Source: Solwaraspora sp. WMMA2065
GTDB taxonomy: Bacteria; Actinomycetota; Actinomycetes; Mycobacteriales; Micromonosporaceae
NCBI RefSeq assembly: GCF_030345075.1
Contig: NZ_CP128361.1
Coordinates: 2,976,001-3,040,000 of the forward strand
Direction of reading: 5' to 3'
DNA length: 64,000 nucleotides
This document shows positions 18,879 to 48,568 of the stretch, piece after piece. A program made the position numbers and the translations under genes. The notes under the pieces were generated by a model. It was given only the letters and a program-made list of their open reading frames with translations. It was not told where the DNA came from and ran no database searches. Numbering within the stretch: the first letter of the stretch is position 1; every line of letters begins with the position of its first letter.

Positions 18879-18895
18879 GCGAGACAGTGTCTCGC
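18879..18895. promoter_or_regulatory. Operator site 1, perfect 17-bp palindrome
   Basis: GCGAGACAGTGTCTCGC: 7-bp arms around a 3-nt centre, the best copy of the shared dyad. It lies 53 nt before the oxygenase alpha start and about 200 nt before the divergent formamidase, between the two. Confidence 0.75.
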
Positions 18896-19101
18896 TCTCC
18901 GATGCTGCTATCAGAGCCCTCCACCTGTCAAGAGCAGGGCATTTTCCGTGATCGGGTTACTCACTGTTAACAGGACAGCAACATGTTCCTGCGGGTTCGG
19001 CGGAAACGATCCGGTCATCCACCCATCACCCGGCCCGCCAGCGGCACGCACCGCCGCGCGCCTCTGCGCCCGCCGGCCGGGTACCCCTTCCGGAGGAAGC
19101 G

Positions 19102-20208
19102 ATGCTCCAGCCGCACCAGGGACCGATCGCCGGCGCCCACTACCTGCCGACCACGCCCGACACCTGCCTGTGGGGCCGGCTGCCCAACCGCAGCCACGCC
19201 CCGGTGCTGCGGGTCCGCTCCGGTGAGACCGTGACCATCGACACCCTCAGCCACGAAGGCATCCTCGAAGACCAGGGCCGCGACCCGGTCGGCTACCTCA
19301 AGCAGTACGACGTACCCGCCGACGGCGTCCTCGCCGACGCCCGCGACCTGGCCGCCTCCGACGTCGCCCACGACTACGACGACGACGGCCCGCACGTGGT
19401 CACCGGCCCGATCACCGTCGACGGCGCACAGCCCGGCGACCTGCTCCGGGTCGACGTGCTCAACCTGACGATCCGGGCCCCGTACGGCTTCGTCAGCAGC
19501 CGGCACGGCTACGGCGCGCTGCCCGGCGAGTTCCCGCTCACCCCGGTCGACACCGGGCCCGACAGCGACCCGCGCGCCTACGGCAGCGTCTGCCACTTCA
19601 CCGAGGTCGTCTCCAGCGGCGGCCGGCTGTACGGCGTACTGCCGTTCGGCGCCGGCCGGGCCGCCCGGTTCCCCCTCGCCCCGTTCCTCGGCCTGATGGG
19701 CGTCGCCGTCGACACCGACGAGATGGTGCACTCGGTGCCGCCCGGCGGGCACGGCGGCAACCTGGACATCAACGAACTGCAGGTCGGCTCCAGCCTCTAC
19801 CTGCCGGTGCAGCTGCCCGGTGCCGGCTTCTACGCCGGTGACCCGCACTACGCCCAGGGCGACGGCGAGGTGGCGCTGACCGCCCTGGAGGCGCCGCTGC
19901 GGGCCACTCTGCGGCTGAGTGTGATCCCGGCGGCGCAGGCCGCCCTGCTGGTCGGTGCCGGCGAGGCCCCGCTGGCCGAGACCGACACCCACTGGATCCC
20001 GGTCGGCCTGGACGCCGACCTGAACGAGGCGATGCGCCGGGCAGTCCGGGCCGCGGTCGACTTCCTGGCCCGCACCCAGGGAATGCCCCGCGACACCGCC
20101 CTGGCCTACCTGAGCGCCGCCGCCGACTTCGAGGTCAGTCAGGTCGTCGACGCGGTCAAGGGTGTGCACTGCCTGATCCGCAAGGCCGACTTCCCCGCCC
20201 AGATCTGA
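19102..20208 (+). CDS. Acetamidase/formamidase (FmdA/AmdA family)
   Basis: 368 aa. Family signatures include TVTIDTLSHEG, VTGPITVDGAQPGDLL, GGHGGNLDINEL and DPHYAQGDGEV. It hydrolyses short amides (formamide, acetamide) to ammonia and the acid in the cytoplasm. GGAGGAAGCG stands just before the ATG. Transcribed divergently from the Rieske operon across operator site 1, it may release nitrogen from a formyl or acetamide fragment made in this pathway (inference). Confidence 0.92.
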   Translation: MLQPHQGPIAGAHYLPTTPDTCLWGRLPNRSHAPVLRVRSGETVTIDTLSHEGILEDQGRDPVGYLKQYDVPADGVLADARDLAASDVAHDYDDDGPHVVTGPITVDGAQPGDLLRVDVLNLTIRAPYGFVSSRHGYGALPGEFPLTPVDTGPDSDPRAYGSVCHFTEVVSSGGRLYGVLPFGAGRAARFPLAPFLGLMGVAVDTDEMVHSVPPGGHGGNLDINELQVGSSLYLPVQLPGAGFYAGDPHYAQGDGEVALTALEAPLRATLRLSVIPAAQAALLVGAGEAPLAETDTHWIPVGLDADLNEAMRRAVRAAVDFLARTQGMPRDTALAYLSAAADFEVSQVVDAVKGVHCLIRKADFPAQI

Positions 20209-20258
20209 CCCCGCCGCCACATCGCGGCACCTCGGCACTCCGCCGAGCGGCCCCTTCC

Positions 20259-20325
20259 CAAGATCATGTGAGCGCTATGGACGTCACGATGCGATTGTGG
20301 CGTACATAACGCTCACATGATCTTG
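20259..20325. repeat. Perfect 16-bp inverted repeat, 35-nt spacer
   Basis: CAAGATCATGTGAGCG (20259-20274) and its exact complement (20310-20325) flank 35 nt. It begins 51 nt after the formamidase stop. It could terminate that transcript, or be a dispersed palindromic/MITE-like element, since the spacer is long for a simple terminator. Confidence 0.6.
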
Positions 20326-20354
20326 AGCAACCGCAGTCTGGCAGGATCACCGGG

Positions 20355-20810
20355 GTGCGTCGAGCGTCAGCACCGCGAGCGGCAGCCAGGTGGTACCGGG
20401 GCGACTGCCACCTGCACTCGGTGCGGTCGACCGGCGGTGAGCTGACCCCGGCCCAGCTGACCGCCGCCGCCCGCGCGGCCGGGCTCGACTTCGTCGCCGT
20501 CACCGAGCACAACACGACCGATGGGTACGCCGACTGGGTCGACGGCGCCGGCGACCTGCTGGTGATCTGCGGCCAGGAGGTCGTCACCCGTACCGGGCAC
20601 TGGCTGGCCCTCGGCCTGCCACCCGGGCACCTCGTCGACTGGCGGTACGGCAACGACAACAGCGACGGCGACGACCGGATCGGCCGACAGCTCGACGAAG
20701 TGCACCGGGCCGGTGGACTGCGCGTCGCCGGAGTCATCCTCGCGCTGTGCCGACCACCCCGCGCCGACGGGCGGCGGGCCGCCGACGACCGACCGGGTCT
20801 GGCCAGCTAG
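20355..20810 (+). pseudogene. PHP-family phosphoesterase, C-terminally truncated
   Basis: The first 115 residues match PHP metal-dependent phosphoesterases: GDCHLHSVRSTGGELTP (HxH), FVAVTEHNTTDGY, then HWLALGLP. After HRAGGLRVA the conserved histidine-proline segment and the whole second half are absent, replaced by unrelated arginine/alanine-rich sequence up to the stop. So it is a broken gene, possibly frameshifted near 20730. It overlaps the convergent ribokinase by 4 nt. Confidence 0.65.
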
Positions 20811-21718
20811 CCGACGGTGAGCACCTCCGCCCGGCGCGGGGCGCTGGCCATCGCGCCGGGCCGGGTCACTGTCACCGCCGCCGCCCGGCTCGCCCAGCGG
20901 GCCGCGTCTTCGATCGCCGCACCGTCGAGCAGCGCGTCGGCCAGCGCCGCGCAGAACGTGTCCCCGGCACCGGTGGCGTCCACCGCGTCGACCCGCTCGG
21001 CCGGCACCAGATGCTCCCGGTCGGCGGTCACTACCAGGGCACCGTCGACGCCGAGGGTCACCACCACCGGCCCCCGGGTACCCAGCGACCGGGCCATCGT
21101 GGCGAGCGCGGCGACATCGCCGGTCCCGCCACCGGCCGGCACGGCCGCACCGGCCAGCGCCGCGAGTTCACCCCGGTTGGGCACCAGCACGTCGACCCGG
21201 GCCAGGGTTTCCGCGTCGATCGGCCGGGCCGGGGCCGGGTTCACCACGACCAGGCCGCGGGCGGCGGCCACCACCGCAGCCACCACCGCCGCGTCGACCT
21301 CCTGCTGCAGCAGTACGGCCGCAGCGTCGCCGATCAGGTCTGCGTACGGCCGCAGGTGCTCCGGGGCGAGCCACATGTTGGCCCCGGAGCTGACCGCGAT
21401 GGTGCTGTCGCCGTCGGCGGTGACCAGCACGATCGCCTGCCCGGTGGGGCGGGGTGCGCGCAGCACCGCCGAGGTGTCGACGCCCTCGGCGGCCAGCAGC
21501 CCGGTCAGCCACTCCCCCTCGGGGTCTTCGCCGACCGCGCCGACCATGGCCACCGACCGGCCCAGTCGGGCGGCGGCCACCGCCTGGTTGGCGCCCTTGC
21601 CGCCACCGGCCCGGGAATGGTCGGCGGCGCTGAGCACCGTCTGCCCGACGGCGGGCAGCTCGTCGAGGGGCACCACCACGTCGACGTTGAGGCTGCCCAC
21701 CACCACAATGTCAGTCAT
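20807..21718 (-). CDS. rbsK: Ribokinase (PfkB carbohydrate kinase)
   Basis: 303 aa. GSLNVDVVV at the N-terminus, GGGKGANQAVAAARLG and the catalytic DATGAGDTFCAAL are PfkB/ribokinase signatures. It phosphorylates ribose or a related sugar with ATP. Its position at the end of an aromatic/amide catabolic operon is unexpected; with the BMP-type importer nearby it may salvage ribose from a nucleoside-like substrate (inference). The ATG at 21718 is 4 nt after the cupin stop. Confidence 0.85.
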   Translation of the reverse strand: MTDIVVVGSLNVDVVVPLDELPAVGQTVLSAADHSRAGGGKGANQAVAAARLGRSVAMVGAVGEDPEGEWLTGLLAAEGVDTSAVLRAPRPTGQAIVLVTADGDSTIAVSSGANMWLAPEHLRPYADLIGDAAAVLLQQEVDAAVVAAVVAAARGLVVVNPAPARPIDAETLARVDVLVPNRGELAALAGAAVPAGGGTGDVAALATMARSLGTRGPVVVTLGVDGALVVTADREHLVPAERVDAVDATGAGDTFCAALADALLDGAAIEDAARWASRAAAVTVTRPGAMASAPRRAEVLTVG

Positions 21719-21722
21719 CGGC

Positions 21723-22100
21723 TCACCCCTGAGCGGCGGGACGCCAGGCATGCGCCAGGAAGTCGGGGCGCGGCGGGGCGAACACGTCCAGGTTGATGCA
21801 CGGGCCCTCGGTCGGCTCGATGTAGTGCTCGGCGCCGCGCGGCACCAGCAGCATCGACCCCGGACCCATGTCGTGCGGTACACCGTCGACGTAGTAGTTG
21901 CACCGCCCGCCGAGGATCATCACCAGCTGGTCGAAGTCGTCGTGGGTGTGCGGGTTGAGCGCCATGCCGACGGCGAGTTCGTGCCAGGCGAGGACCACCT
22001 CGTCGGTGGCGTACACCTTGCGTCGCACGCCGGGGCGCACGTCAGTGGCGGGGATGTCGTCCCAGTTGACCGAGGTGCGGTAGAGCTGCGGGTTCAGCAC
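21723..22100 (-). CDS. Small cupin protein
   Basis: 125 aa, single cupin barrel: PHTHDDFDQLVMILGG is the first metal motif (two His, Glu replaced by Asp-Gln) and GSMLLVPRGAEHYIEP the second. Cupins of this size include isomerases, dioxygenases and simple metal-binding proteins; the pathway role is unknown. It is 25 nt downstream of the HpcH aldolase and coupled to the ribokinase. Confidence 0.8.
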   Translation of the reverse strand: MLNPQLYRTSVNWDDIPATDVRPGVRRKVYATDEVVLAWHELAVGMALNPHTHDDFDQLVMILGGRCNYYVDGVPHDMGPGSMLLVPRGAEHYIEPTEGPCINLDVFAPPRPDFLAHAWRPAAQG

Positions 22101-22125
22101 GTCCGGGCTCCCTTCGAGGGCTGGC

Positions 22126-22923
22126 TCAATTGTCGGTGGCGAGGTGGCGCAGGCCGGCGCCGAGCAGCTGCAGGTCGGAGCCGGCGACCAGGTAGTTGGC
22201 GCCGGTCAGCCCGTACCGGCGCAGAATGCCGTCGGCCCGGCCCGGCGCCCACCCACCCAGGGTGACCCCGGCGACGCGGGCAGCGTCGGCGATCTCACCG
22301 ACCCGGCGCAGCAGCGGCGCCTGGTCGTCGGTGGTGGCCAGGCCGAGGCTGACGGCCAGGTCGGTGGTGCCGGCGAACGCCACGTCGACGCTGGAGTTGC
22401 CGTCCGGGCTGGCAAGCAGGTCGGGTAGCGGGTCGTCGGTGTCGGCGGTCTCGATCTGGGCGACCAGCAGCGGCGGGTCGGCGGCCTCGGCGGCCAGGTA
22501 GGCGTCCAGCCCGGCGGCCCCGTAGCTGGCGGCCGGGTGGGCGAGGCTGATGCTGCGCCGGCCGGTCGGCGCGTACCGCACGGCGGTGTGCAGCGCGGCG
22601 AGCTGCGCACGGGCGCGGACGGTGGACAGCTGCACCCCGGCGGCTCCGGCCTCCAGCAGCCGGTTGACCTGCGCCGGGTCGACCGCTGCCAGCCGTACCA
22701 GGGCCGGCAGGCCGAGCAGTGCGGCGTGCCGCAGCTGCCCGGCGGCGGTCCGCTCGTCCAACCCGGAGTGCTCCAGGTCGACCACGACGAAGTCGAGGCC
22801 GGCCTGGGCGGCCAGCTCGACCGCGTCGGTGCCGGGCAGTTTCAGGAAGGTGCCGACCACCCGCCGGCCGCGCCGCAGCCGCTCACGCAGCGCGGCCCGG
22901 CCGGTGTGCACCCCGGTGCGCAT
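22126..22923 (-). CDS. HpcH/HpaI-family class II aldolase
   Basis: 265 aa. GTFLKLPGTDAVELAAQAG, FVVVDLEHSGLDE and the glycine-rich VAFAGTTDLAVSLG place it in the HpcH/HpaI family, which splits 4-hydroxy-2-oxo acids into pyruvate and an aldehyde or catalyses the reverse. That is the expected final C-C cleavage after meta-cleavage of an aromatic ring. The ATG at 22923 has GAGGA 8 nt upstream. Confidence 0.85.
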   Translation of the reverse strand: MRTGVHTGRAALRERLRRGRRVVGTFLKLPGTDAVELAAQAGLDFVVVDLEHSGLDERTAAGQLRHAALLGLPALVRLAAVDPAQVNRLLEAGAAGVQLSTVRARAQLAALHTAVRYAPTGRRSISLAHPAASYGAAGLDAYLAAEAADPPLLVAQIETADTDDPLPDLLASPDGNSSVDVAFAGTTDLAVSLGLATTDDQAPLLRRVGEIADAARVAGVTLGGWAPGRADGILRRYGLTGANYLVAGSDLQLLGAGLRHLATDN

Positions 22924-22934
22924 CGGGTCGGTCC

Positions 22935-24131
22935 TCAGCTGGCCCGGCCGGCGGCACCGGCCTGGTCGGTGGGCAGGCCGCGCCACGGTACGGTCGGCAC
23001 CCGCTCGCCGGCCAGCAGCACCACTTCCGGCTCCAGCCGGGGCGCGGTGATCTGGTTGCCGGCCGCGTCGGGCAGCACCGCCTCGTCTGCGTCGGCGAGC
23101 ACGGTGACGTGCGCCGGGCCGCCTTCGACGAGGCTGCCGTAGCCTTCGGCGTCCAGGCCGGTCAGCCGGGCCGGGGCGCTGGTCACCCGGGGCACGATCT
23201 GCTCCATGGTCATGCCCAGCGCGCGTAGCTTGGCCATGCTCGTGACCAGGTCGAACACCGGGCCGCGCCAGTTGCGGGCCGAGGTGTCCGAGGTGATCAC
23301 GTCGGGGTAGAAGCCCTGCGCGATCGCCGGTTCGGCCACCTTGAAGCTGAGGTTGCTCTTGCCGTGCGCCGACTCGAACAGCACACCGCGCTCACGGGCG
23401 GCGTACACCTCGGGCAGCACCGTGCCGTCGGCCAGGATGCCGTACGGCTTGCCGGTGTAGCAGTGCGCGACCACGTCGCCGGGGCGCAGCATCTCCAGTA
23501 CGGCCGGCAACGGCTCCGGGGTCTCCCCGATGTGGATCATCAGCGGCAGGCCGGCCTCGGCGGACAGCTCCAGCGAACGCTTGAGCAGCGGCCGCCAGTT
23601 GTGCCCGACGACGTCCTCGGAGAGCCGGATCTTGAAGCCGCGGACCCGGTGCGGGTTGGCGGCGGCGACCGCGAGCGCGTCCTCGGGGACCAGGGTGTCC
23701 GGGTTCATCAGCTCGCCGAACCGGAAGTCGATCAGCCCGAGCACGCTGACGTTGAGGAAGTTGACCAGCCGCAGCTTGGCCGGGGCGGCGACGTACCGCT
23801 CGAAGGCGGCGAAGGTGGACGCGCCGACGGTGCCGGCGTCGCAGGCGGCGACGACGCCCCGGTGCAGGTGCGCCTCGTCCGGCGGGGCACCGACCTTGGA
23901 CACCTCGGCGAAGATGTGGGTGTGTCCCTCGACCAGGCCGGGCAGCACGTACCGGCCGGCGCAGTCGACCACCTCGCGGGCGTCGGCGGCCAGGCCGGGG
24001 GCGATCCGGGCGATCCGGGCGATCCGGGCGCCGGTCACCGCGACGTCGGCGACCTGGCTGGCACCGGTGGTGGAGTCGAAGACCTCACCACCGGCCAGCA
24101 CCAGGTCGTACCGGGGAGCATTCTCAGTCAT
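22935..24131 (-). CDS. Amidohydrolase (dihydroorotase/deacetylase-like)
   Basis: 398 aa metal-dependent TIM-barrel hydrolase. GHTHIF gives the HxH pair, RGFKIRL the probable carboxylated lysine, MIHIGE and VAHCYTG the later histidines, and SDTSARN the catalytic aspartate. The short Ile-Ala-Arg repeat near residue 40 is encoded by three copies of GATCCGGGC (about 24001-24027). Likely cleaves a cyclic or linear amide. It overlaps FAH by ATGA. Confidence 0.85.
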   Translation of the reverse strand: MTENAPRYDLVLAGGEVFDSTTGASQVADVAVTGARIARIARIAPGLAADAREVVDCAGRYVLPGLVEGHTHIFAEVSKVGAPPDEAHLHRGVVAACDAGTVGASTFAAFERYVAAPAKLRLVNFLNVSVLGLIDFRFGELMNPDTLVPEDALAVAAANPHRVRGFKIRLSEDVVGHNWRPLLKRSLELSAEAGLPLMIHIGETPEPLPAVLEMLRPGDVVAHCYTGKPYGILADGTVLPEVYAARERGVLFESAHGKSNLSFKVAEPAIAQGFYPDVITSDTSARNWRGPVFDLVTSMAKLRALGMTMEQIVPRVTSAPARLTGLDAEGYGSLVEGGPAHVTVLADADEAVLPDAAGNQITAPRLEPEVVLLAGERVPTVPWRGLPTDQAGAAGRAS

Positions 24132-25036
24132 CGGTCAGCGGACTTTCTGTGCGAAGGAGAGGACGGTGCCACCACGTCGGGGGTGCCGTCGGCGGTTTCG
24201 GCGCAGAACCGGGTACGCAGCGGCAGCACCCCGCCGACCGAGACCTCGACCAGGTCACCGGGGCGCAGGAAGCAGCCCCGGTCCTGGCCGGTGCCGGCCG
24301 GGGTGCCGGTGAGCACCACGTCGCCCGGTTCCAGCACCACGTACCGGGTGATCCAGGCGAGCAGCTGCGGCACCGGGAAGATCAGGTCGGCGCTGGTGGC
24401 CTGCTGGCGTACCTCGCCGTTGACGGTGGTCCGCACCTCGATGGCGTCGCGGTCGGCGACGGCGGCGATGTCCAGCACCGACGTGCCCAGCGCGCCGAAG
24501 CCGGGGAAGCTCTTGGCCAGCGTCGGGTTGCCCGACGCGGTCATCACGTCGCGGGCGGTCAGGTCGTTGGCGGCGGTGATGGCCGCGACGTGCGACCAGG
24601 CCTGCTCGGCCGGCGTACGGTGCATCCGGGCCCCGATGACCAGCGCGATCTCGCCTTCGTAGTCAGGCTGGGCGCTGATCGAGCTGGGCAGCGCCACGGT
24701 GGCGTCCGGACCGGAGCCGGCGCTGGCCGACTTGAGGTAGAGCACCGGTTCGGTGGGCAGTGCCCGGCCGGCGGCGCGGGCCTTGCAGTGGTAGTTGAGG
24801 CCGACTCCCCAGACCGCCCGGGTGCTGCCCAGCGGGGCGACCAGCTCAGCGGTGAGGGTGTCCAGCGGCAGCCGCTCACGTGTGGGTGCGGTCGCCGCGG
24901 GGTCGAGCCCGGTGCCGGCGCGCAGGAGGTCGGCGACGTCGCGGTACGGCAGGTCGAGCAGTTCGGCGGTGCCGTCGCCACAGATCCGGGCCAGCCCGTG
25001 CCGGGTGGCCAGCAGCTGCAGTCCGGGGGCGCTCAC
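24128..25036 (-). CDS. Fumarylacetoacetate-hydrolase-family protein
   Basis: 302 aa. The FAH core shows [22 protein letters not shown] (Mg-binding Asp/Glu), [21 protein letters not shown] and the C-terminal [15 protein letters not shown]. Members hydrolyse or hydrate 2-oxo-acid intermediates of meta-cleavage pathways. GTG start at 25036, GTGA overlap with the reductase gene. An N-terminal extension of about 60 residues precedes the core, common in this family. Confidence 0.88.
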
Positions 25037-26013
25037 GCGGCGTCCGACGAGTGGCCGGGCACGGTGCTCAGCGCCGGGTTGACCAGCGGTGCCAGGTTGT
25101 TGACGGCGGCGGCGGCCTCACCGAAGCCGACCGAGATCAGCCGCACCTTGCCCGGGTAGTCGGTGACGTCCCCGGCGGCGTAGACCCGGGGCAGGTTGGT
25201 ACGCATCGACCGGTCGACGGTGATGTGCCGTTTGGTCATCTCCAGCCCCCACTGCTGCATCGGGCCGAGGTCGGCGATGAAGCCGAGGGCGGCCACCACC
25301 GCCTGGGCGGGCAGCTCCTCGCGCCCGTCGCCGCGTACCTCGCTGATCGTGACCGAGGTGAGCTGTGGGTCGCCGGCGATGCCGCTGACCTCGTACGGGG
25401 TGACCACCCGCACGCTCGACGCGTGCAGCTGCTCGACGCTGCGTTCGTGGGCGCGGAACTGCGGCCGGCGGTGCACCAGGGTGACGCTGGCGGCGTACGG
25501 CTCCAGGGCGAGCGCCCAGTCGACGGCGGAGTCGCCGCCGCCGACCACGACGACCTGCTGTCCGGCGAGTTCCTCCAGCCGGGGCACGAAGTAGCGCAGC
25601 CCACGGCCGAGGTAGTCGCTGCCGACCGGCAGCTCGCGCGGGGTGAAGGTGCCGATCCCGGCGGTCAGCAGGACCGCCTTGGCGCGCACCCGGCTGCCGG
25701 TGTCGGTGCCGAGCTGCACGTGGTCGGCGGCGTTGGTCAGCTCCACGGCGCTCTCGCCCAGCAGGAAGGTGGGTTTGGCAGTGGCGGCCTGGGTGAGCAG
25801 GTCGTCGACGAGCTGCTGGCCTTTGATCGACGGTAGGCCGGCGATGTCGTAGATGTCCTTCTCCGGGTAGAGGGCAGCGATCTGTCCGCCCGGTTCGGGC
25901 AGCGAGTCGATGATCGCCACGGTCATCCCACGGAAGCCGGCGTAGTAGGCGGCGTAGAGGCCGGCCGGGCCGGCGCCGATGACAGCCAGGTCGACGTCGT
26001 GTTCGGCGGTCAT
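25033..26013 (-). CDS. Ferredoxin-NADP+ reductase, thioredoxin-reductase-like
   Basis: 326 aa flavoprotein with FAD-binding GAGPAG at 13-18, NADPH-binding [12 protein letters not shown], and [12 protein letters not shown] near the end. It lacks the CxxC of thioredoxin reductase, as expected of bacterial FNRs of this fold. It follows the ferredoxin gene with an ATGA overlap and should reduce it. Together they probably power the Rieske oxygenase at 17399-18826. Confidence 0.9.
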
Positions 26014-26324
26014 GAGCCGGTGCTCCCGGCGACGGCCGGGTGGTCGCGACCGACCCGGCCGATCTTGCGGGCACCGCCGGGGGCGCCGAGCTCGCTGAAG
26101 AACTCGGCGTTGATCGGGCCGAAGTGTGCCTGGTCGGCCGGCAGGTCGTCCAGGTGGAAGATCGAGGTGACCGGGCAGACCGGTTCGCACCGGCCGCACT
26201 CGACGCACTCGTCGGGGTTGATGTACATCATCCGGTCGCCCTCGTAGATGCAGTCCACGGGGCATTCCTCGACGCAGGAGCGGTCCTGTACGTCCACGCA
26301 TTCGTCGGTGACCACGTAGGTCAT
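26010..26324 (-). CDS. 7Fe ferredoxin (3Fe-4S/4Fe-4S)
   Basis: 104 aa. Cysteines follow CX7CX3CP (C9, C17, C21) and CX2CX2CX3CP (C40, C43, C46, C50), the standard FdxA-type pattern; C25 is extra, as usual. It carries electrons to oxygenases or P450s. It is first gene of the minus-strand operon 26324-20807, with its promoter in the divergent gap holding operator site 2. Confidence 0.93.
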
Positions 26325-26419
26325 CGGTCCTCCCGCATCAGTGGGCCTCTTCGCCGTCCTGCTCGCGTCTCGCGCCTCTGCGACCTGCGGTTATCTGGTT
26401 GGACAGCGGCGTCGTTGAT

Positions 26420-26429
26420 GTGACGTCAC
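26420..26429. promoter_or_regulatory. Short palindrome GTGACGTCAC
   Basis: A perfect 10-bp dyad in the 184-nt divergent gap between the ferredoxin and M20-like genes, 32 nt from operator site 2. It may be a second regulator site or core promoter overlap; chance is possible. Confidence 0.3.
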
Positions 26430-26460: not shown

Positions 26461-26477
26461 GCGAGACGTCATCTTGG
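26461..26477. promoter_or_regulatory. Operator site 2
   Basis: GCGAGAC-GTC-ATCTTGG, 11 of 14 arm positions matching site 1. It lies 32 nt before the M20-like start and 137 nt before the ferredoxin start, in the divergent promoter region. Confidence 0.6.
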
Positions 26478-27858: not shown

Positions 27859-27869
27859 TGCTGTCTCAC
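27853..27869. promoter_or_regulatory. Operator site 3, upstream of IclR gene 1
   Basis: GCATGAT-GCT-GTCTCAC, 10 of 14 arm positions matching site 1, overlapping the M20-like stop and 91 nt before the IclR start. Fits autoregulation. One of the two weakest copies. Confidence 0.45.
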
Positions 27870-36974: not shown

Positions 36975-37035
36975 AGTCCGTTCCACCTCGATAGTCGGGT
37001 CAGCAAGTGGTTTCCGATGTGCGGTCGGTGGCGGG

Positions 37036-38115: not shown

Positions 38116-38126
38116 AGCTGTTCCTT

Positions 38127-40644: not shown

Positions 40645-40661
40645 ACAATATGCCGTCTTGC
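40645..40661. promoter_or_regulatory. Operator site 4, importer operon
   Basis: ACAATAT-GCC-GTCTTGC followed by AT; the right arm is good (6 of 7) and the left weak (3 of 7). It ends 24 nt before the MDR start, in the right place for repression. The rest of 40622-40802 shows no gene. Confidence 0.4.
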
Positions 40662-40802
40662 ATTGTGATCCGTGCTGCTTAGCGACGTACTCTGCCTGCG
40701 CTCCGGCAACCTGTCAACGCCTCGACCGAAACTGGCTCAGCTACGTAACGTGCCCGTGATCCAGGCCGGCACAACCGGGCGGAAGTCGCCATCGACCTGC
40801 GG

Positions 40803-41987
40803 TTATCCGCCGTCTGCGACGACGATCAGCAGCTCCCGCGCGACCAGCGCGGTACGCAGCACCGCAGCAGTCGACGGATGCAAAGGATCCACCCCCAGTA
40901 GCCGCTTGATCAGACCCACCCGGTAGCCGACGGAGTTACGGTGCAGATGTAGTTGTTCACTCACAGCTTGCCTGCTCCCACCGGTCGCCAGCCAGTGGTC
41001 CAGGGTGCGGAGCAGGTCGTCGCGCTGCGCGATCGGCCCCAGGTGCCGGTCCACGTACCAGCGCAGCCGGTCCGGCGGCACGGCCAGCAGCAGCTGCGCC
41101 AGACCAGCCCGCTCGAACGGCAGCTCGGCCGGCTCCGCAGCCGCCGGACTGTTGCGCAGCAGCAGCCGCAGCAGCAGCCGGGCGTCCCGGAACGAGTCCG
41201 GGGTCGCGGCCGGGCCGGTCACCGACCGGCCGCCGGCCACCCGGACCTGGCCGGCACCGACGATCTGTTCCAACCGGCCGCGCAGCCGGACCACCTCCCG
41301 CTCGGCGTCACCCTGCAGCAGGGTCCAGCCCAGCCCTCCGTCGGCCAGCACCGGCCGGTCCAGCCAGGTCAACGCGGACGCCCACCGGCGCCGCTGGGTG
41401 CCGGTGTAGCCGAGCGCCACGGCCGCGTGCGGTTGGTCCAGCCGCCACCGGTACGCCGCCGCGGCCCGCACCAGGTCCGCCTGGCCGGCCGGGGACCGGT
41501 CACCGGTGCCGTCGCGCAGCGCCCGCAGCAGCCCGTCAGCGCCCACCGGCGGTGGCGGCTGCGGCGGCTCCCGACGTACCGCCTCGATGAGCAGTGCGGT
41601 GACCGCGGCCCGGGCGTAGTCGAGCTGGCCGGCCCCGACCGGCTCGGCCAGCAGCAGGGCACCGAGCCGACGGCTGCCGGACCCGACCGGCACCGACCGG
41701 CCGAGCCAGCCGTCGACGCAGCGCACCCGGTCGCCGCGTAGCTCGACCGGGTCGGCGACCGCGCTGCCGCTGGTGCTGTCGCTGGTGGCCAGCAGCTCGC
41801 CGGTCTCGGCGACCAGCCGGCAGTCCCGGCCGATGGCCTCGGCCAGCCGGGCCAGCAGCACCGGCCAGCCAGCACCGCCGAACGCGAGGTCGGTCAGCCA
41901 CTGGGCGAACTGGGCCGGCGTCGGTTCGGCAGCCACGGCCAGCCGGGGCCGGACGGCCGGCACCGGACGGTCGGCCGCCCCGGTCAC
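40803..41987 (-). CDS. PucR-family transcriptional regulator
   Basis: 394 aa. The C-terminal HTH (LLRTLDHWLATGGSRQAVSEQ, LHLHRNSVGYRVGLIKRLLG) is the PucR/CdaR signature; the central part is a GGDEF-like sensor fold without its motif. PucR-type proteins often activate purine or amine catabolism. The GTG at 41987 overlaps the aldehyde dehydrogenase stop (GTGA), so the regulator is coexpressed with that enzyme. Confidence 0.88.
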   Translation of the reverse strand: MTGAADRPVPAVRPRLAVAAEPTPAQFAQWLTDLAFGGAGWPVLLARLAEAIGRDCRLVAETGELLATSDSTSGSAVADPVELRGDRVRCVDGWLGRSVPVGSGSRRLGALLLAEPVGAGQLDYARAAVTALLIEAVRREPPQPPPPVGADGLLRALRDGTGDRSPAGQADLVRAAAAYRWRLDQPHAAVALGYTGTQRRRWASALTWLDRPVLADGGLGWTLLQGDAEREVVRLRGRLEQIVGAGQVRVAGGRSVTGPAATPDSFRDARLLLRLLLRNSPAAAEPAELPFERAGLAQLLLAVPPDRLRWYVDRHLGPIAQRDDLLRTLDHWLATGGSRQAVSEQLHLHRNSVGYRVGLIKRLLGVDPLHPSTAAVLRTALVARELLIVVADGG

Positions 41988-43453
41988 GTCGGCGATCGAT
42001 CGAGCAGCCGGACCGCGACGGCCTTCTCCTGGGTGTACTCGCGCAGCGCCGCGTACCCGCCGCCCCGGCTGAACCCACTCTCCTTCTGCATGTTGAACGG
42101 GAACCCGATCACCCCGGCGTCGTGGAACTGGTTGACCGCCACCTGACCGCTGCGGGCCTGGCCGGCCACCCGCAACGCCCGGGACACGTCGGAGGTCCAG
42201 ACGCAGGTGAGCAGGCCGAAGTCGGTGCCGTTCATGATCGACACCGCTTCCTCGGTGCTCCGAAACCCCTGCACGGCCAGGACCGGGCCGAAAATCTCCT
42301 CGCGAGCCAGCCGCATCGTCTCGTCGACGCCGTCGAACACGGTCGGGGCCACGTACCAGCCGTCGCCGAACGCGGCCGTGGCCGGCTCCCCGCCGGTGAC
42401 CAGCCGCGCCCCGGAGCCCGGCGCCTCGGCCAGGAACCCCCGGACCCGCTCGTACTGGGCCTGGCTGACCAGTGGGCCCATGTCCAGGTCCTGTTCCCAC
42501 GACCCGACCCGGACCTCGGCCATCGCGGCGGCCACCCGCTCGACCACCTCCGCCCGGATCGACTCCTCGACCACCAGCCGGGAGCCGGCGTAGCAGTTCT
42601 GGCCGGCGTTCTCGGTGATCGAGGCGACGATCGCCGGTACGGCGGTGTCCAGGTCCGCGTCGGCGAAGACCACGTTCGGCGACTTGCCGCCGAGTTCGAG
42701 TTTCACCGGGACCAGGTGCTCGGCGGCGGCCCGCATCACCGCCCGGCCGGTGACGGTCGAACCGACGAAACTGATGTGGTCGACGTCTGGATGGCCGGTC
42801 AGCGCCACGCCGGCCTCCGGGCCGAGCCCGGTCACCACGTTGAGCACCCCGGGCGGCAGCCCGGCCCGCCGGGCCAGCTCGGCCAGGGCGAACGGGGCGA
42901 GCGGGGCGATCTCGGACGGCTTGAGCACCACGGTGTTGCCGGCGGCCAGCGCCGGGGCGACGTTCGCGGCGGTGAGCACGGCCGGCACGTTCCACGGGAT
43001 CACCACCGCGCAGACGCCGTACGGCTCCGGGCGGGTGTAACCGAAGTAGTCAGGGGTACGGGTGGGCAGGGTGACCCCGGTCAGCTTGTCGGCCGCGCCG
43101 GCGAAGTAGTCGACGATGCCCTGCGCGATGTAGATGTTGAGCCGGCCGCCGGAGCGGGGTTTGCCCACGTCACGGGCCTCATAGACGGCAAGTTCCTCGA
43201 CGTGGGCGGCGATCAGGTCGACCCACCGGCGCAACGCCGCGCCGCGTTCGCTCGACGAGGTCGCGGCCCAGCCGGGGGCGGCCCGGCGGGCGGCGGCGAC
43301 GGCACGGTCCACGTCGACGGCGCGGGCCCGGGCGACCGGCTGGATGCTCTGCCGGGTCGCCGGGTCGAGCACCGGAAGTTCGCCACCGTCGGCGGCTGCC
43401 TCCCAGGCACCGTCGATCAGCTGGCGGGCAGCGGGAATGTCCAGGTCAGCCAT
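41984..43453 (-). CDS. NAD(P)+-dependent aldehyde dehydrogenase
   Basis: 489 aa. VIPWNVPAVL, FVGSTVTGRAVM, the catalytic glutamate in LELGGKSPN and the catalytic cysteine in GQNCYAGSR are in place. It oxidises an aldehyde to the acid. AAGGAT precedes the ATG. It is divergent from an alcohol dehydrogenase, with one dyad (site 5) between them, so alcohol to aldehyde to acid oxidation is likely induced as a unit. Confidence 0.94.
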   Translation of the reverse strand: MADLDIPAARQLIDGAWEAAADGGELPVLDPATRQSIQPVARARAVDVDRAVAAARRAAPGWAATSSSERGAALRRWVDLIAAHVEELAVYEARDVGKPRSGGRLNIYIAQGIVDYFAGAADKLTGVTLPTRTPDYFGYTRPEPYGVCAVVIPWNVPAVLTAANVAPALAAGNTVVLKPSEIAPLAPFALAELARRAGLPPGVLNVVTGLGPEAGVALTGHPDVDHISFVGSTVTGRAVMRAAAEHLVPVKLELGGKSPNVVFADADLDTAVPAIVASITENAGQNCYAGSRLVVEESIRAEVVERVAAAMAEVRVGSWEQDLDMGPLVSQAQYERVRGFLAEAPGSGARLVTGGEPATAAFGDGWYVAPTVFDGVDETMRLAREEIFGPVLAVQGFRSTEEAVSIMNGTDFGLLTCVWTSDVSRALRVAGQARSGQVAVNQFHDAGVIGFPFNMQKESGFSRGGGYAALREYTQEKAVAVRLLDRSPT

Positions 43454-43485
43454 GGTGGAATCCTTGACCCTCCATGTTCCGCATG

Positions 43486-43502
43486 TCAAGATGCAGTCTC
43501 GC
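43486..43502. promoter_or_regulatory. Operator site 5, divergent ALDH/ADH promoter
   Basis: TCAAGAT-GCA-GTCTCGC; right arm perfect, left 4 of 7. It is centred between the two starts, 33 nt and 27 nt away. Confidence 0.6.
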
Positions 43503-43528
43503 TTCGTGAGTACACCGGGAGGATTTGC

Positions 43529-44611
43529 GTGCGGGTCACGGCGGCGGTACTGGACAGCGCGGGTGGACCGTTCACCCTGCAGGAGCTCGACCTGGCCGGA
43601 CCCGGCCCGGACGAGGTGCTGGTACGCGTACACAGCGTCGGTATCTGCGGCACCGACCTGGAGTTCGCCAACTTCTTCCCCACCCCGGCGGTGCTCGGCC
43701 ACGAGGGTGCCGGCGTGGTCGAGCAGGTCGGCGAGCGGGTCACCGGTGTCTCGGCCGGCGACCACGTGGCGATGAGCTTCACCTCGTGCGGCACCTGCCC
43801 GCTCTGTCTGACCGGCAGCCCGGCGTACTGCCGCAGCTTCGACGCGGTCAACTTCGCCGGCCGCCGCCCGGACGGCAGCAGCGCGCTGTCGCGCGACGGC
43901 GAACCGGTCAACGGGCACTTTCTCGGCCAGTCGTCGTTCGCCAGCCACGTGGTCGCCCCGGCCCGCGCCGTGGTGCCGATCAGCAAGGAGATCGACCTGC
44001 GGCTGGTCGGGCCGTTCGGCTGCGGCTTCGGCACCGGGGCCGGCGCGGTGCTCAAGGTGCTCCGCCCGCCGGTCGGGTCGTCGATCGTCGTCTTCGGTGC
44101 CGGCTCGGTCGGCGTGGCGGCGATCCTCGCCGCCCGGATCGCCGGCTGCACCACGATCGCCGCGGTCGACGTCAACGCCGACAAGCTGGACACGGCCCGG
44201 CTGCTCGGCGCCACCCACGGCGTCGACTCGCGCACCGGGGACGCGAAGGAGCTGCTCGCCGCGATCGCCCCGCACGGATTCGACTTCGCGATCGACGCCA
44301 CCGGGCGCGAGGAGGTGCTGCGGACCGCGGTCGAGTCGCTCGGCCCGCTGGGTCGGTGCGGCGTCGTCGGGGTCGGCCCCAGCGAGCGGATGAGCTTCGA
44401 CTGGCGCAGCATCCTCAACGGGCGCAGCGTCACCGGGATCATCGGCGGCGCCAGCCTGCCCCAGGTGTTCCTGCCGAAGTTGCTGGACCTGCACACCGCC
44501 GGCCGCTTCCCGGTGGACCGGCTGCTCAGCTACTACCCGTTCGAGCAGATCAACGAGGCGGTGGCGGCGGTACGCTCCGGCACCGTCGGCAAGGCCGTCC
44601 TGACGCTCTGA
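43529..44611 (+). CDS. Zinc-dependent alcohol dehydrogenase (aryl-alcohol dehydrogenase-like)
   Basis: 360 aa MDR enzyme. SVGICGTDLEF and VLGHEGAGVVEQVG hold the catalytic zinc ligands; CGTCPLCLTGSPAYC holds the structural zinc cysteines; VVFGAGSVGVAA is the NAD-binding turn. The sequence style is closest to benzyl-alcohol/long-chain class dehydrogenases. GGGAGGA precedes the GTG at 43529 by about 5 nt. Confidence 0.92.
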   Translation: MRVTAAVLDSAGGPFTLQELDLAGPGPDEVLVRVHSVGICGTDLEFANFFPTPAVLGHEGAGVVEQVGERVTGVSAGDHVAMSFTSCGTCPLCLTGSPAYCRSFDAVNFAGRRPDGSSALSRDGEPVNGHFLGQSSFASHVVAPARAVVPISKEIDLRLVGPFGCGFGTGAGAVLKVLRPPVGSSIVVFGAGSVGVAAILAARIAGCTTIAAVDVNADKLDTARLLGATHGVDSRTGDAKELLAAIAPHGFDFAIDATGREEVLRTAVESLGPLGRCGVVGVGPSERMSFDWRSILNGRSVTGIIGGASLPQVFLPKLLDLHTAGRFPVDRLLSYYPFEQINEAVAAVRSGTVGKAVLTL

Positions 44612-44628
44612 CCCGAGCGTGTCCCATT

Positions 44629-44645
44629 GCGAAACGTTGTCTCGC
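44629..44645. promoter_or_regulatory. Operator site 6, upstream of the P450
   Basis: GCGAAAC-GTT-GTCTCGC, 13 of 14 arm positions matching site 1. It begins 18 nt after the ADH stop and ends 92 nt before the P450 start, giving the P450 its own controlled promoter. Confidence 0.7.
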
Positions 44646-44736
44646 CATGTGAGTGGGATTACCCTCGGCTCCAGACACCCAGTGGCGCGGCTGGGAAACA
44701 CCGCGCGGCAGTCAGCACATGTGGAGCTCGCCCGCC

Positions 44737-46983
44737 ATGACTGAATCTCGTATCGCGGGTCCGTCCGACCCGCATTCCGCGGCACCGTTCGACCACCACT
44801 CCGCCGAGTGCAACGCCGACCCGGTCGGCTACTACCGGGCGTACCGCGACAGATGTCCGGTCGGCCGGACCGACGCGCACGGTGGCTTCGTCTACACCAC
44901 CCGGTACGCCGACGTGGTCCGCGTCGCCCGCGACGACGACACCTTCTCCTCGGCCCGCGCCGCCGCCGGTGGCGACGGCACCGCCATCGTCATCCCCCGC
45001 GGGCCGGGTCTGGAGCAGTACCCGATCGAGCTGGACCCGCCGGCCGCCGGCGACTACCGCGACCTGATCAACCCGCTGCTCACCCAGGACGCGGTCGCGA
45101 AACTCGCCCCGATGATCGCCCGGCACACCACCCGGATCATCGACGACTTCGTCACCGAAGGCTCGGTCGACTTCGTCCGTGACCTGACCAACCCGCTGCC
45201 GGCCGCCGTCACCCTGGACTGGCTCGGCTTTCCCGAAGCGGAATGGCCCAAGCTGGCCAAGCCGATCCACGACATCTTCGCCGCCCTGCCCGGCAGCGAA
45301 CGCGCCATCCGGGGCGGCCAGGGCCTGGCGTACATGGACGAACGGATCCGGGAACTCATCCACGCCCGGCGCGCCGAACCGGCCGACGACGCGGTCAGCT
45401 ACCTGGTCGCCCAGCGCCGACCCGACGGCGAACTGTTCGGCGTCGACGAACTGGTCTCCGTCATCGGCCTGCTGATCGCCGGCGGGGTCGACACCACCAC
45501 CTCGCTGACCGGCTCCACCCTGGTGCACCTGAGTCGCCACCCGGAACAGCGGCAACGGCTGATCGACTCACCCGACCTGCTCGACGGCGCCACCGAGGAG
45601 TTCCTGCGGGTCTTCGCGCCGTCCCAGTCGATGGCCCGTACCGCCCGCGCCGACGCCGAGGTCGGCGGCTGCCCGGTCAGCGCCGGCGAACGGATCCTGA
45701 TCCCCTGGGTCGCCGCCAACCACGACCCGGCGGTCTTCCCCGAGCCGGAGCAGGTCCGGCTGGACCGCGACGCCACCCGGCACCTCAGTTTCGGCATCGG
45801 CAGCCACCGGTGCGCCGGCGCCCACCTGGCCCGGCTGATGTTCCGCGAAATGATCACCCAGGTGCTGACCCGGCTGCCGGACTACCGGGTCGTCGAAGAC
45901 GGCCTCGTCGGCTACCCCACCAAGGGGAACCAGACCGGTTGGGACGCCATCCCGGCCGTGTTCACCTCCGGCCGCCGCGCCGCCGACGCGGCGGCCGGAG
46001 GTGCCCCGGCGCTCACCCGCCCCGGCGGCGACCGGGAACTGGTCGTCGGGGCGGTCACCCGGGCCGCCGACGAGGTGCTGGAGGTACGGCTGACCGCCGC
46101 CGACGGCGCACCGCTGCCGGCCTGGGCACCCGGCGCCCACCTGGAGGTGCGGCTGCCGTCCGGCCGGGTCCGGCAGTACTCGCTCTGCGGCGATCCCGCC
46201 GACACCAGCGGCTACCGGCTCGGCGTGCTGCGGGAGGCCGCCGGGCGCGGCGGCTCTGTCGAGCTGCACACCGTCGCCGCCGCCGGCGCGACCCTGACGG
46301 TACGCGGCCCGCGTAACCACTTCCCGCTGGTCGACGCCGACGAGTACCTCTTCCTGGCCGGCGGGATCGGGATCACCCCGATCCTCGCCATGGTCCGCGA
46401 AGCCGTCCGGCGCGGTACGCCGTACCGGGTCGTCTACGGCGGCCGCAGCCGGGCCTCGATGGCCTTCGCCGACGAACTGGGCGCCCTCGCCGGCGACCGG
46501 GCCGCGCTGCTACCGCAGGACGAGGCCGGGCTGCCCGACCTGGCCGGGCTGATCGGTGGCGTCGGCGACGGCACCGCCGTCTACTGCTGCGGACCCGGCG
46601 CGATGATCAACGCGGTGGAGCGGGTGTGTGCCGACGCCGGACGCACCGGGCAGCTGCACGTGGAGCGCTTCGCCGCTGGCGACGACCTGGAGGTGGCGTT
46701 CGACCCGGCGGCCAACACCGAGTTCGACGTCCAGTTGGCCCGCACCGGGGTCACCCTGCGGGTGCCGAAGGACAAGCGGATGATCGAGGTGCTGCGCGAG
46801 GCCGTACCCGGCCTGACCTACGACTGCGAGAAGGGCTACTGCGGGGCCTGCGAGACCCGGGTGCTGGCCGGCACGCCGGAGCACCGCGACTCGCTGCTCA
46901 CCGCCGACGAACGGGCCGCCGGGCGCAGCATGATGATCTGCGTCGGCCGGTGCAGCTCCGACCGCCTGGTGCTCGACCTCTGA
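44737..46983 (+). CDS. Self-sufficient cytochrome P450 fused to FMN/2Fe-2S reductase (CYP116B-like)
   Basis: 748 aa. The P450 part (about 1-410) has the I-helix GGVDTTT, an FxPEPEQVRLDR segment and the heme loop FGIGSHRCAG with C359. A short Ala/Gly linker leads to a phthalate-dioxygenase-reductase module: flavin motif RQYSLCGDP, NAD-binding FLAGGIGITPILAM, and plant-type 2Fe-2S cysteines C697, C702, C705 and C735. Such fusions need only NAD(P)H and oxygen. CYP116B relatives hydroxylate aromatics and O-dealkylate. GGAG lies 11 nt before the chosen ATG; ATG 44719 is an alternative start. Feeding an alcohol to the neighbouring ADH/ALDH is a natural role (inference). Confidence 0.93.
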   Translation: MTESRIAGPSDPHSAAPFDHHSAECNADPVGYYRAYRDRCPVGRTDAHGGFVYTTRYADVVRVARDDDTFSSARAAAGGDGTAIVIPRGPGLEQYPIELDPPAAGDYRDLINPLLTQDAVAKLAPMIARHTTRIIDDFVTEGSVDFVRDLTNPLPAAVTLDWLGFPEAEWPKLAKPIHDIFAALPGSERAIRGGQGLAYMDERIRELIHARRAEPADDAVSYLVAQRRPDGELFGVDELVSVIGLLIAGGVDTTTSLTGSTLVHLSRHPEQRQRLIDSPDLLDGATEEFLRVFAPSQSMARTARADAEVGGCPVSAGERILIPWVAANHDPAVFPEPEQVRLDRDATRHLSFGIGSHRCAGAHLARLMFREMITQVLTRLPDYRVVEDGLVGYPTKGNQTGWDAIPAVFTSGRRAADAAAGGAPALTRPGGDRELVVGAVTRAADEVLEVRLTAADGAPLPAWAPGAHLEVRLPSGRVRQYSLCGDPADTSGYRLGVLREAAGRGGSVELHTVAAAGATLTVRGPRNHFPLVDADEYLFLAGGIGITPILAMVREAVRRGTPYRVVYGGRSRASMAFADELGALAGDRAALLPQDEAGLPDLAGLIGGVGDGTAVYCCGPGAMINAVERVCADAGRTGQLHVERFAAGDDLEVAFDPAANTEFDVQLARTGVTLRVPKDKRMIEVLREAVPGLTYDCEKGYCGACETRVLAGTPEHRDSLLTADERAAGRSMMICVGRCSSDRLVLDL

Positions 46984-46998
46984 CCGCAGTGGTACGAC

Positions 46999-47032
46999 GA
47001 AGGGCGGGACCGGTCGACCGGTCCCGCCCTTC
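46999..47032 (+). terminator. Terminator of the P450 gene
   Basis: A 34-nt perfect palindrome: 15-bp arms starting GAAGGGCGGGACCGG around TCGA, 16 nt after the P450 stop. Confidence 0.85.
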
Positions 47033-47067
47033 TGCCATGTCACCGGCGCCGGTCAGCTGAATGCGGG

Positions 47068-47105
47068 CGGCCCGCTGCGCTACGACTTTGGAGCGCGGCG
47101 GGCCG
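47068..47105 (-). terminator. Terminator of the TauD-like gene
   Basis: CGGCCCGCTGCGCT (47068-47081) pairs over 14 positions (one G-U) with 47092-47105 around a 10-nt loop. It begins 19 nt beyond the stop of the minus-strand gene at 47124. Confidence 0.75.
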
Positions 47106-47123
47106 TCCACGTACCGGGAGTGG

Positions 47124-48194
47124 TCAGTTACCCCACTCAATGTTCACCTCGGCCGCCTCGGCGATCTGGAACCGGCCGCCCGGGACCACGTCCGCCGCGC
47201 CCCGGTCGCTGACGACGTTCTTGCCGAAGCCGTCCACCAGCGGGCGGCCGACGTCGCGCTTGAGCCACAGCCGCAGCAGGTGACGGCGACGCTCCGGCTC
47301 GGGGTAGTCGACGTAGCCGGTCCGCGAGTGCAGGGCGGCGTAGTTCAGCAGCCACTGCACGTCGCCGGGCTGGAAGTTCATGTCCAGCGCCAGGCCCGGC
47401 TCCTGGGAGATCTCGTCGTAGAGGTGCAGCAGCTCGATCTGCGCCTCGGTGAGTCGGGGCACCTCGGGGTAGTCCTGCGCCGAGAAGATCATCGAACTGC
47501 CGGCGTAGGTGCTGAAGATGCCGTCGACGTAGCTGCAGATCGGCGACAGGTAGGTCTTCGCCGGGGCGTCGTGGTCCTGCTTGTACCAGTCCCAGTGCCA
47601 CGGCTCGAACAGCAGCGGCGCCAGGTCCGGCCGGCGGCGCAGGATCTCGTTGTAGATGGTGGTACCGCTGACCAGGCTGCTCGCCCCGCCCTCCTTCGCC
47701 GCGCGCAGGCACATCAGCGCGACGACGTCGGAGCTGTCGGAGTGGAACGGCAGCCGGTCACGCACCCGCGACGGCAGCGCCGACGGGTCGTCGAGGGTCT
47801 TGTTGGAGGTGGCGATGACGTGGTCGAGCACGTCACCCATCTGGTTCTGCCCCATCGGTACGCCGAGGTGCAGCCCCATCAGGAAGAAGATCGCTCCGGC
47901 GAGGGTGTCGCCGTACTCCTCGGTGCGCAGCCCGCGGACCAAGATGAAGCCGCGGCCGGAGTCCATCTGCTGGGCACATTCGGCGTTGAGGCCGGCGCAG
48001 ACCGGCAGCGGGTAGTCGGCAGCGGTGACCGTACGCAGGTCGGGGTCGTCGGCGACGAACTTGCGCCCGACGGTCTCCAACTCGGTCCGCTCGGCGTCGC
48101 TGAGGTGGTAGATCCATTCGGTGGACTTGCTCAGCTCGTCGCCGCGCCAGGCGGACGGGCCGGAGATCGGGGCCAGGTCGATTGCGGTCGTCAT
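47124..48194 (-). CDS. TauD/TfdA-family Fe(II)/2-oxoglutarate dioxygenase
   Basis: 356 aa. The iron facial triad is visible as HSD in LPFHSDSSDV and the distal histidine in ALHSRTGY, with the 2-oxoglutarate arginine nearby (RRRHLLRLW). It hydroxylates an aliphatic position or cleaves an ether/sulfonate; the substrate is unknown. It is preceded by a 41-aa ORF and operator site 7, so it belongs to the inferred regulon. Confidence 0.9.
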   Translation of the reverse strand: MTTAIDLAPISGPSAWRGDELSKSTEWIYHLSDAERTELETVGRKFVADDPDLRTVTAADYPLPVCAGLNAECAQQMDSGRGFILVRGLRTEEYGDTLAGAIFFLMGLHLGVPMGQNQMGDVLDHVIATSNKTLDDPSALPSRVRDRLPFHSDSSDVVALMCLRAAKEGGASSLVSGTTIYNEILRRRPDLAPLLFEPWHWDWYKQDHDAPAKTYLSPICSYVDGIFSTYAGSSMIFSAQDYPEVPRLTEAQIELLHLYDEISQEPGLALDMNFQPGDVQWLLNYAALHSRTGYVDYPEPERRRHLLRLWLKRDVGRPLVDGFGKNVVSDRGAADVVPGGRFQIAEAAEVNIEWGN

Positions 48195-48362
48195 GATGAT
48201 GCGCTCCGAGGGTCGTCGGTTCTGATGGATGAGTCGGCCGGTGTCCCGGATGCGACGCGCGGTGGCGTGCGCGGACCGGTTCGGTCAGGACAGGTGTGGC
48301 GAGCCCGCCGTGTCGCCCGGCGTGTCAGGTGCCGGGGTGCGACAGACGGGCGTACTCGACAA

Positions 48363-48488
48363 TCAGAACGGGGTCTGCGGATCCCCGGCGGCGGTCCCGG
48401 GGCGCATGCCCTCACGCGGCGGGTGGACCCGCAGCGGCTCCTCGTAACCGCGCACCAGCAATCCAGCACCTTGCGGAACTCGGATCAT
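48363..48488 (-). CDS. 41-aa ORF under operator site 7
   Basis: The ATG at 48488 has a strong AGGAGAACGCC leader and starts 64 nt after operator site 7. The product is basic and proline/glycine-rich (MIRVPQGAGLLVRGYEEPL at the N-terminus) without membrane segment or known family. It is first in the transcript leading to the TauD gene, 168 nt downstream. It could be a small protein, a leader peptide, or a relic of a larger gene; the strong ribosome site argues for translation. Confidence 0.5.
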   Translation of the reverse strand: MIRVPQGAGLLVRGYEEPLRVHPPREGMRPGTAAGDPQTPF

Positions 48489-48551
48489 GGCGTTCTCCTG
48501 CGGCTGGGTGGTCGTGTCCGCCAGCCTAGGCCAGCACAAGTCGACCGTCAA

Positions 48552-48568
48552 CAGAGACGCCGTCTCGC
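48552..48568. promoter_or_regulatory. Operator site 7
   Basis: CAGAGAC-GCC-GTCTCGC, 12 of 14 arm positions matching site 1, followed by AAT. It stands upstream of the 41-aa ORF and TauD gene. Confidence 0.65.

Follow-up and report, generated by a model that had tools for sequence, protein, structure and literature searches.

Do the seven copies of a 17-bp dyad, GCGAGAC-N3-GTCTCGC, that are spread over 30 kb of the Solwaraspora sp. WMMA2065 genome mark the promoters of a single regulon, and if so, which protein recognizes them? The question was raised by a first-pass annotation of a 64,000-nucleotide stretch of this genome (contig NZ_CP128361.1, positions 2,976,001 to 3,040,000; hereafter the window, numbered from its own first base), which linked the dyad to genes of oxygenases, dehydrogenases and an importer and named two IclR-family proteins as the natural candidates for its binder. 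On the evidence set out below, we consider it likely that the seven dyads are operators of one IclR regulator, IclR1, probably shared with its paralogue IclR2, and that they control a catabolic and uptake regulon. The seven 17-mers lie where the annotation had placed them, and its arm matches of 14, 11, 10, 9, 11, 13 and 12 of 14 bases were reproduced:

18879..18895, operator 1, between the Rieske oxygenase (minus) and formamidase-like (plus) genes; 14/14 arm bases; kept in all 8 genomes that were aligned
26461..26477, operator 2, between the ferredoxin-FAD reductase operon (minus) and the M20-like gene (plus); 11/14 arm bases
27853..27869, operator 3, ahead of IclR1 (putative autoregulation); 10/14 arm bases; the weakest site, not returned by the whole-genome model
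40645..40661, operator 4, ahead of the genes for alcohol dehydrogenase ADH1, an amidohydrolase and a BMP-type ABC (ATP-binding cassette) importer (minus); 9/14 arm bases
43486..43502, operator 5, between the aldehyde dehydrogenase (minus) and alcohol dehydrogenase ADH2 (plus) genes; 11/14 arm bases
44629..44645, operator 6, ahead of the self-sufficient P450 gene (plus); 13/14 arm bases
48552..48568, operator 7, ahead of a 41-codon open reading frame (ORF) and then TauD (minus); 12/14 arm bases

The accompanying claim that each site stands in front of such a gene needs a qualification for site 7, which immediately fronts the 41-codon ORF and not the TauD-family dioxygenase gene beyond it, with 72 bp between the operator centre and the ATG of the ORF. 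Most gene starts lie 28-102 bp from an operator centre, with start codons as chosen in this analysis; the distance is 145 bp for the ferredoxin-FAD reductase and 215 bp for the formamidase. Reading 34 sites on both strands gave the consensus GNAATGCGAGATGNCATCTCGCATTNC.

A similarity picked by eye could in principle have arisen by chance, and simple pattern counts do nothing to dispel this concern, being no higher than in shuffled sequence or a reversed control: GCGAGAC-N3-GTCTCGC with up to 3 mismatches has 10 matches in the 64-kb window against 14.9 expected, and the consensus with up to 2 mismatches occurs at 30 places in the whole genome against 53 for the reversed pattern, so that neither count shows enrichment. 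Plain consensus counting was not used as evidence. With a symmetric, palindromic 27-bp matrix, each site omitted in a leave-one-out series came 7th among the 63,974 positions of the window, outranked solely by the six sites that had built the matrix, and with all seven sites included the scores were 25.1-30.0 bits, the next-best window position reaching 11.3. Since the sites were originally selected for their similarity, the leave-one-out rank is partly circular, and the independent evidence therefore comes from relatives and from loci outside the matrix. Genome-wide, the scan that the annotation had proposed as a check found no frequent matches elsewhere among what was scored: a model scan of 6.74 Mb (27 positions, E ≤ 10, 150 of 736 first-look candidates scored) gave 12 matches, every one of them at a window site; six sites were hit and 27853 was missed. 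Of the 27 near-consensus places that lie elsewhere in the genome (≤2 mismatches), 12 (L002 and L004-L014) were rescored with the 27-bp matrix, and all fell below the weakest window site (25.1 bits), ten of them at ≤5.6 bits, L007 at 16.4 and L013 at 11.2.

Six genomes of the same genus and G009 keep the cluster in synteny, G037 has a reduced version, and in G094 and G072 (another family) the genes are rearranged, with cluster proteins that are mostly 45-82% identical to those of the window. With a matrix built from the window alone, G009 and five of the same-genus genomes yielded all seven sites; the sixth, G002, yielded six of the seven plus one elsewhere in the fetched stretch, which is without TauD. 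The same matrix found four strong sites in G037 and, at 18 bits or more, five in G094 and four in G072. Across 7-8 genomes, conservation of the 23-bp core was 0.90-0.99 per site against 0.54-0.97 for the adjacent 40-bp flanks, values taken from gapless columns, so that indels depress the flanks, part of which are coding. A search with IclR1 led to 29 loci, including ones from Micromonospora, Microtetraspora, Streptosporangium, Rhizohabitans, Dactylosporangium and Rhodococcus, metagenome-assembled genomes (MAGs) of Actinomycetales, Acidimicrobia and Chloroflexi, and, as a control, L078 from a distant Rhizobiaceae MAG (28% identity). In these loci (510 kb), 77 positions scored 18 bits or more with the window-only matrix, whereas five Markov simulations averaged 0, and in 25 of the 29 a match of at least 13 bits lay no more than 300 bp ahead of the gene matching IclR; where genes have been rearranged, the sites still precede the same orthologues. 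Conservation ahead of orthologous genes, which the annotation had named as a further check, is thus borne out in the six same-genus genomes, G009, G037, G094 and G072, in named loci from Micromonospora to Rhodococcus, in the Acidimicrobia and Chloroflexi MAGs, and in two loci that played no part in building the matrix; the proposed regulon is thus found across several soil-bacterial groups.

Of these two, L111 is an unannotated plasmid of Streptomyces sp. NBC_00841 found via the Rieske and IclR1 proteins. Its sites precede TauD, the Rieske oxygenase, the ferredoxin-FAD reductase, IclR1 and an FAA hydrolase operon, another lies between the aldehyde dehydrogenase and ADH2, and one extra site of 15.6 bits stands before no gene identified in the analysis. 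The other, G107, was reached solely through the small ORF and not through IclR1; it has an operator ahead of the small ORF and TauD, an IclR1 at 60%, six operators of 24.5-30.7 bits inside the cluster and a seventh match, of 15.5 bits, outside it. The 40-kb stretches of L111 and G107 each hold 7 sites of at least 15 bits, whereas the null means were 0.2 and 0.1 with a maximum of 1. G107 and G282, two genomes reached via the small ORF, carry IclR1 and the motif together. As negative controls, L112 and L113 (Rieske relatives on plasmids of Rhodococcus and Mycobacterium, without IclR1) showed no such site near the Rieske gene; their best matrix scores were 10.8 and 15.9, and the position scoring 15.9 is about 8 kb away from that gene. 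Conservation, the genome-wide exclusivity of the sites and the loci outside the matrix all speak against chance similarity, which we regard as refuted by the excess of sites over simulated nulls in the 29 IclR1 loci, L111 and G107, and to which we assign a practically negligible probability.

Which protein, then, binds the dyads? The candidate regulators encoded in the cluster are the following:

27960..28820, plus strand, IclR1, proposed operator-binding regulator (HTH_IclR and IclR_C domains; co-occurrence with the motif)
28817..29596, minus strand, IclR2, paralogue of IclR1, about 50% identical and with a near-identical recognition helix (HTH_IclR and IclR_C domains)
40803-41990, minus strand, PucR
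48607-49209, minus strand, TetR

IclR1 and IclR2 both score above the Pfam cut-offs for the N-terminal HTH_IclR and the C-terminal IclR_C domains. The 29 loci were fetched through IclR1 and cannot show co-occurrence; a genome-wide search of 101 relatives can. In this search, IclR1 at 1e-40 was present in 13 of the 101, the Rieske oxygenase at 1e-100 in the same 13, and motif matches at E ≤ 1, obtained with stricter filters and 75 candidates scored per genome, in 13 of 13 IclR1-bearing relatives. The sites are thus a cluster-specific conserved set that tracks IclR1, with a separation between motif and IclR1 that is strong but not perfect. The annotation had offered PucR and TetR as alternatives, and both genes do sit in the cluster beside operators. 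Binding of the dyads by either of them, or by an unlinked regulator, nevertheless appears very improbable to us: neither gene is present in the 40 kb fetched from G037, which retains four sites; TetR was not found in the fetched stretches of G005, G003 and G009 that keep site 7, stretches that end 0.4-3.6 kb from TauD or the site; and the motif follows IclR1. Some clusters that carry the sites lack PucR, some lack TetR and some lack IclR2, and the IclR family, favoured by the annotation and followed by the motif genome-wide in the form of IclR1, is the best-supported candidate binder.

Within this family, the paralogue deserves attention. The recognition helices of IclR1 and IclR2 read SKATAHRY and SRATAHRY, and the pattern SK(A/P)TAHRY occurs in 31 of 31 IclR homologue rows read in frame (a set that includes L110, the IclR2-like gene of G037, and in which neither the control L078 nor the two window proteins are counted; L054 is not included). 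Because IclR2 is an approximately 50% identical paralogue with a near-identical helix, it may well share the sites of IclR1. One could go further and propose that the operators of this genome are bound by IclR2 alone or by an IclR1/IclR2 pair, as the similarity of the helices, the adjacency of the two genes and the sites adjoining the IclR2-like gene in G037 would allow. Yet G008, G072, G085 and G094 (at 1e-40) and G107 (at 1e-30) show a single IclR of this type at the thresholds used and keep the motif, so that IclR2 is not required there, and in the window operator 3 precedes IclR1 while no strong site precedes IclR2. We therefore regard this proposal as unlikely and retain IclR1 as the most likely binder.

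Two observations concern further IclR1 copies. In the Microtetraspora loci L057-L060 and L063, a copy 77-84% identical to IclR1 (IclR match at about 10001-10798) has an operator about 100 bp upstream and no other cluster gene clearly nearby. In G037, the motif match C1:8399742 and another IclR1-like gene, the second in this genome, at 8409618, are about 10 kb apart and perhaps form a second regulon.

How might IclR1 act on these promoters? Without its effector, IclR1 would occupy operators that overlap or abut the -35 element and shut the promoters, its own included. A pathway compound, either the substrate or an intermediate and perhaps taken up by the BMP-type ABC importer, would then bind the C-terminal domain of IclR1 and cause its release. 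This would jointly induce the P450, the dehydrogenases, the Rieske oxygenase and the ferredoxin-FAD reductase that serves it, hydrolases and an enzyme that may cleave a ring. We infer repression, the effector and the substrate; blocking of the -35 element is favoured because -35-like hexamers, picked by eye, lie in or beside operators 5 to 7: operator 5 contains TTGACA, operator 6 overlaps TTGTCT-N17-TACCCT, and operator 7 abuts TTGACG-N17-TAGGCT. Alternatively, the same regulator could use the same operators as an activator. Some IclR proteins, such as PobR and PcaU, are activators, and operators near the -35 element would fit activation too; the hexamers at operators 5-7, by contrast, look near consensus, occlusion is the simpler account, and autoregulation through operator 3 fits repression. 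Activation strikes us as possible but doubtful, and repression remains our working model.

Several points weigh against the overall proposal. Weak motif matches (E ≤ 1) occur in 14 of the 88 relatives without IclR1, in 13 of them at one site and in G032 at two, while G094, which has IclR1, shows only one distinct site at this threshold, and G009, G037, G072 and G085 also show matches outside the main cluster. Among the 29 IclR1 loci, L067, L071 and L075 are without a site within 300 bp upstream of IclR1, as is the control L078. The cluster operator differs at some positions from the published group 2 IclR consensus, and a strong tandem box at 20 bp is present at none of the 7 window sites. Finally, binding and regulation are predictions from sequence, under which operator-bound IclR1 could equally activate; the promoter hexamers were chosen by eye, and positions are relative to start codons rather than transcription starts.

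We then asked what the regulon might encode. Gene assignments, made from Pfam and NCBIfam, are as follows:

15638..16546, minus strand, two-domain VOC protein, weakly extradiol-dioxygenase-like
17399..18859, minus strand, Rieske oxygenase alpha subunit (true start may be the ATG at 18826)
19102..20208, plus strand, acetamidase/formamidase family
20807..26324, minus strand, PfkB, HpcH/HpaI aldolase, amidohydrolase, FAA hydrolase and ferredoxin-FAD reductase genes (start at 26324 from sequence)
26509..27858, plus strand, M20-peptidase-like protein (a weak assignment, with no Pfam match and an NCBIfam score far under the cut-off; kept in relatives)
33164..40621, minus strand, ADH1, amidohydrolase, BMP-type ABC importer (binding protein, ATPase, two permeases)
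41984..43453, minus strand, aldehyde dehydrogenase
43529..44611, plus strand, ADH2, zinc alcohol dehydrogenase (like those dependent on mycothiol or NDMA, N,N-dimethyl-4-nitrosoaniline)
44737..46983, plus strand, self-sufficient P450-reductase-2Fe-2S fusion
47124..48194, minus strand, TauD-family dioxygenase
48366..48488, minus strand, conserved 41-codon ORF between operator 7 and TauD, absent from the supplied ORF list

Between IclR1 and the importer genes lie IclR2, SnoaL and VOC genes (minus), then an aldo-keto reductase (plus) and a cation exchanger (minus); the right end runs PucR, aldehyde dehydrogenase (minus), ADH2 (plus), P450 (plus), TauD (minus), the small ORF (minus), operator 7 and TetR (minus). 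Matches to PDB sequences give families only and are insufficient to settle a substrate: the P450 fusion, which we take to be CYP116B-like, joins P450, reductase and 2Fe-2S domains in a single polypeptide and aligns with 6kbh and 6laa over residues 35-776 of 776, and the VOC protein at 15638 has 3b59 as its best match (1.3e-16) and resembles extradiol dioxygenases weakly (2.3e-06). The enzyme set suggests oxidative dealkylation (P450, ADH2 and aldehyde dehydrogenase), ring oxidation, possible extradiol-type cleavage and hydrolysis of an amide or ring nitrogen. We consider an aromatic molecule with alkyl substituents and amide or ring-nitrogen groups the probable substrate, and the predicted co-regulation suggests that the genes belong to a single pathway.

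The small ORF is 98-100% conserved in G009 and in the five same-genus genomes whose fetched sequence covers it, and 76% conserved in Micromonospora echinofusca L056, and its C-terminal part is recognizable in Streptomyces L111 and in G107. Its well-kept C-terminus reads PPREGMRPGTAAGDPQTPF, no Pfam or NCBIfam entry matches it, and a search of 298 genomes of the order located it in 4, counting that of the window. The operator served here as a discovery tool, pointing to this ORF, which in turn led to another genome with the cluster. It is tempting to speculate that the regulon serves an undescribed pathway for one nitrogen-bearing aromatic natural product across Actinomycetota and into Acidimicrobia and a Chloroflexi MAG, that the two IclR paralogues sense different intermediates on the same operators, and that the conserved micropeptide acts with the TauD dioxygenase; we put this extended scenario forward tentatively and give it limited credence. 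In any case, about two dozen loosely annotated genes become one testable unit, with a named regulator for genetic follow-up, a candidate sensor module and an operator consensus that can flag the pathway in other genomes.

Other features of the window were also noted. Just upstream of operator 4, at 40672-40700, a block beginning with GCTGCTTAGCGACGTAC is near-invariant in 8 aligned genomes and is possibly a site for a second regulator. At 6900-10803 (minus strand) lie genes for a histidine-specific methyltransferase and an FGE-sulfatase/DinB protein, like those of ergothioneine biosynthesis (EgtD, EgtB), and a DDE transposase gene at 50803-51771 (plus strand) is located just outside the cluster.

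How does this system compare with known ones? The best NCBIfam matches of IclR1 are PcaR/PcaU/PobR (96.0 bits) and BhcR (84.5 bits), which share IclR control of aromatic catabolism, at scores far below the curated cut-offs of 284.75 and 350; IclR2 (83.3 bits) likewise does not reach the 284.75-bit cut-off of the PcaR/PcaU/PobR subfamily TIGR02431. The thc thiocarbamate cluster of Rhodococcus combines, as this cluster does, a CYP116-type P450, an aldehyde dehydrogenase and an NDMA-type alcohol dehydrogenase, but it is AraC-regulated and is not known to include Rieske and importer modules. PMC titles and the starts of abstracts, queried with GCGAGATG, with GTCTCGC and GCGAGAC together with IclR, and with cluster terms, yielded no description of the operator or the cluster, though the supplementary tables of PMC8222616 may list the motif. 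In that study (Suvorova and Gelfand 2021), group 2 IclR operators such as that of KdgR resemble the cluster's in being an inverted repeat with a one-base centre, and the group consensus TGRAACA-N1-2-TGTTYCA, compared by eye, has the same arrangement, the cluster motif being nearer to the KdgR variant. The KdgR operator, which according to PMC13273656 contains GAAACGNCGTTTC, differs from the cluster core GAGACGNCGTCTC by one base per half; the two systems are further distinguished by the outer arms (AATGC/GCATT) and by the genes under control. Of 116 distinct sites, 11 have a second box exactly 20 bp away, at 9 places (two pairs being counted from both sides), and one further site has a box at 15 bp; only strong second boxes were counted, since mean scores at offsets 15 and 20 are inflated by self-overlap of the palindrome and were not used. 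This 20-bp doubling in some loci falls inside the 18-22 nt spacing of tandem IclR sites reported in PMC8222616 for 94 orthologous groups, and thus not universal. The phenanthrene repressor PheR of Sphingobium, as PMC13273656 describes it, has a 44-bp footprint with an essential GCAACG, unlike the dyad described here; like the regulator proposed here, it is an IclR protein, a repressor over an uptake and ring-oxidation cluster. The regulon described here is thus a further case of a known kind, the IclR-controlled catabolic regulon.

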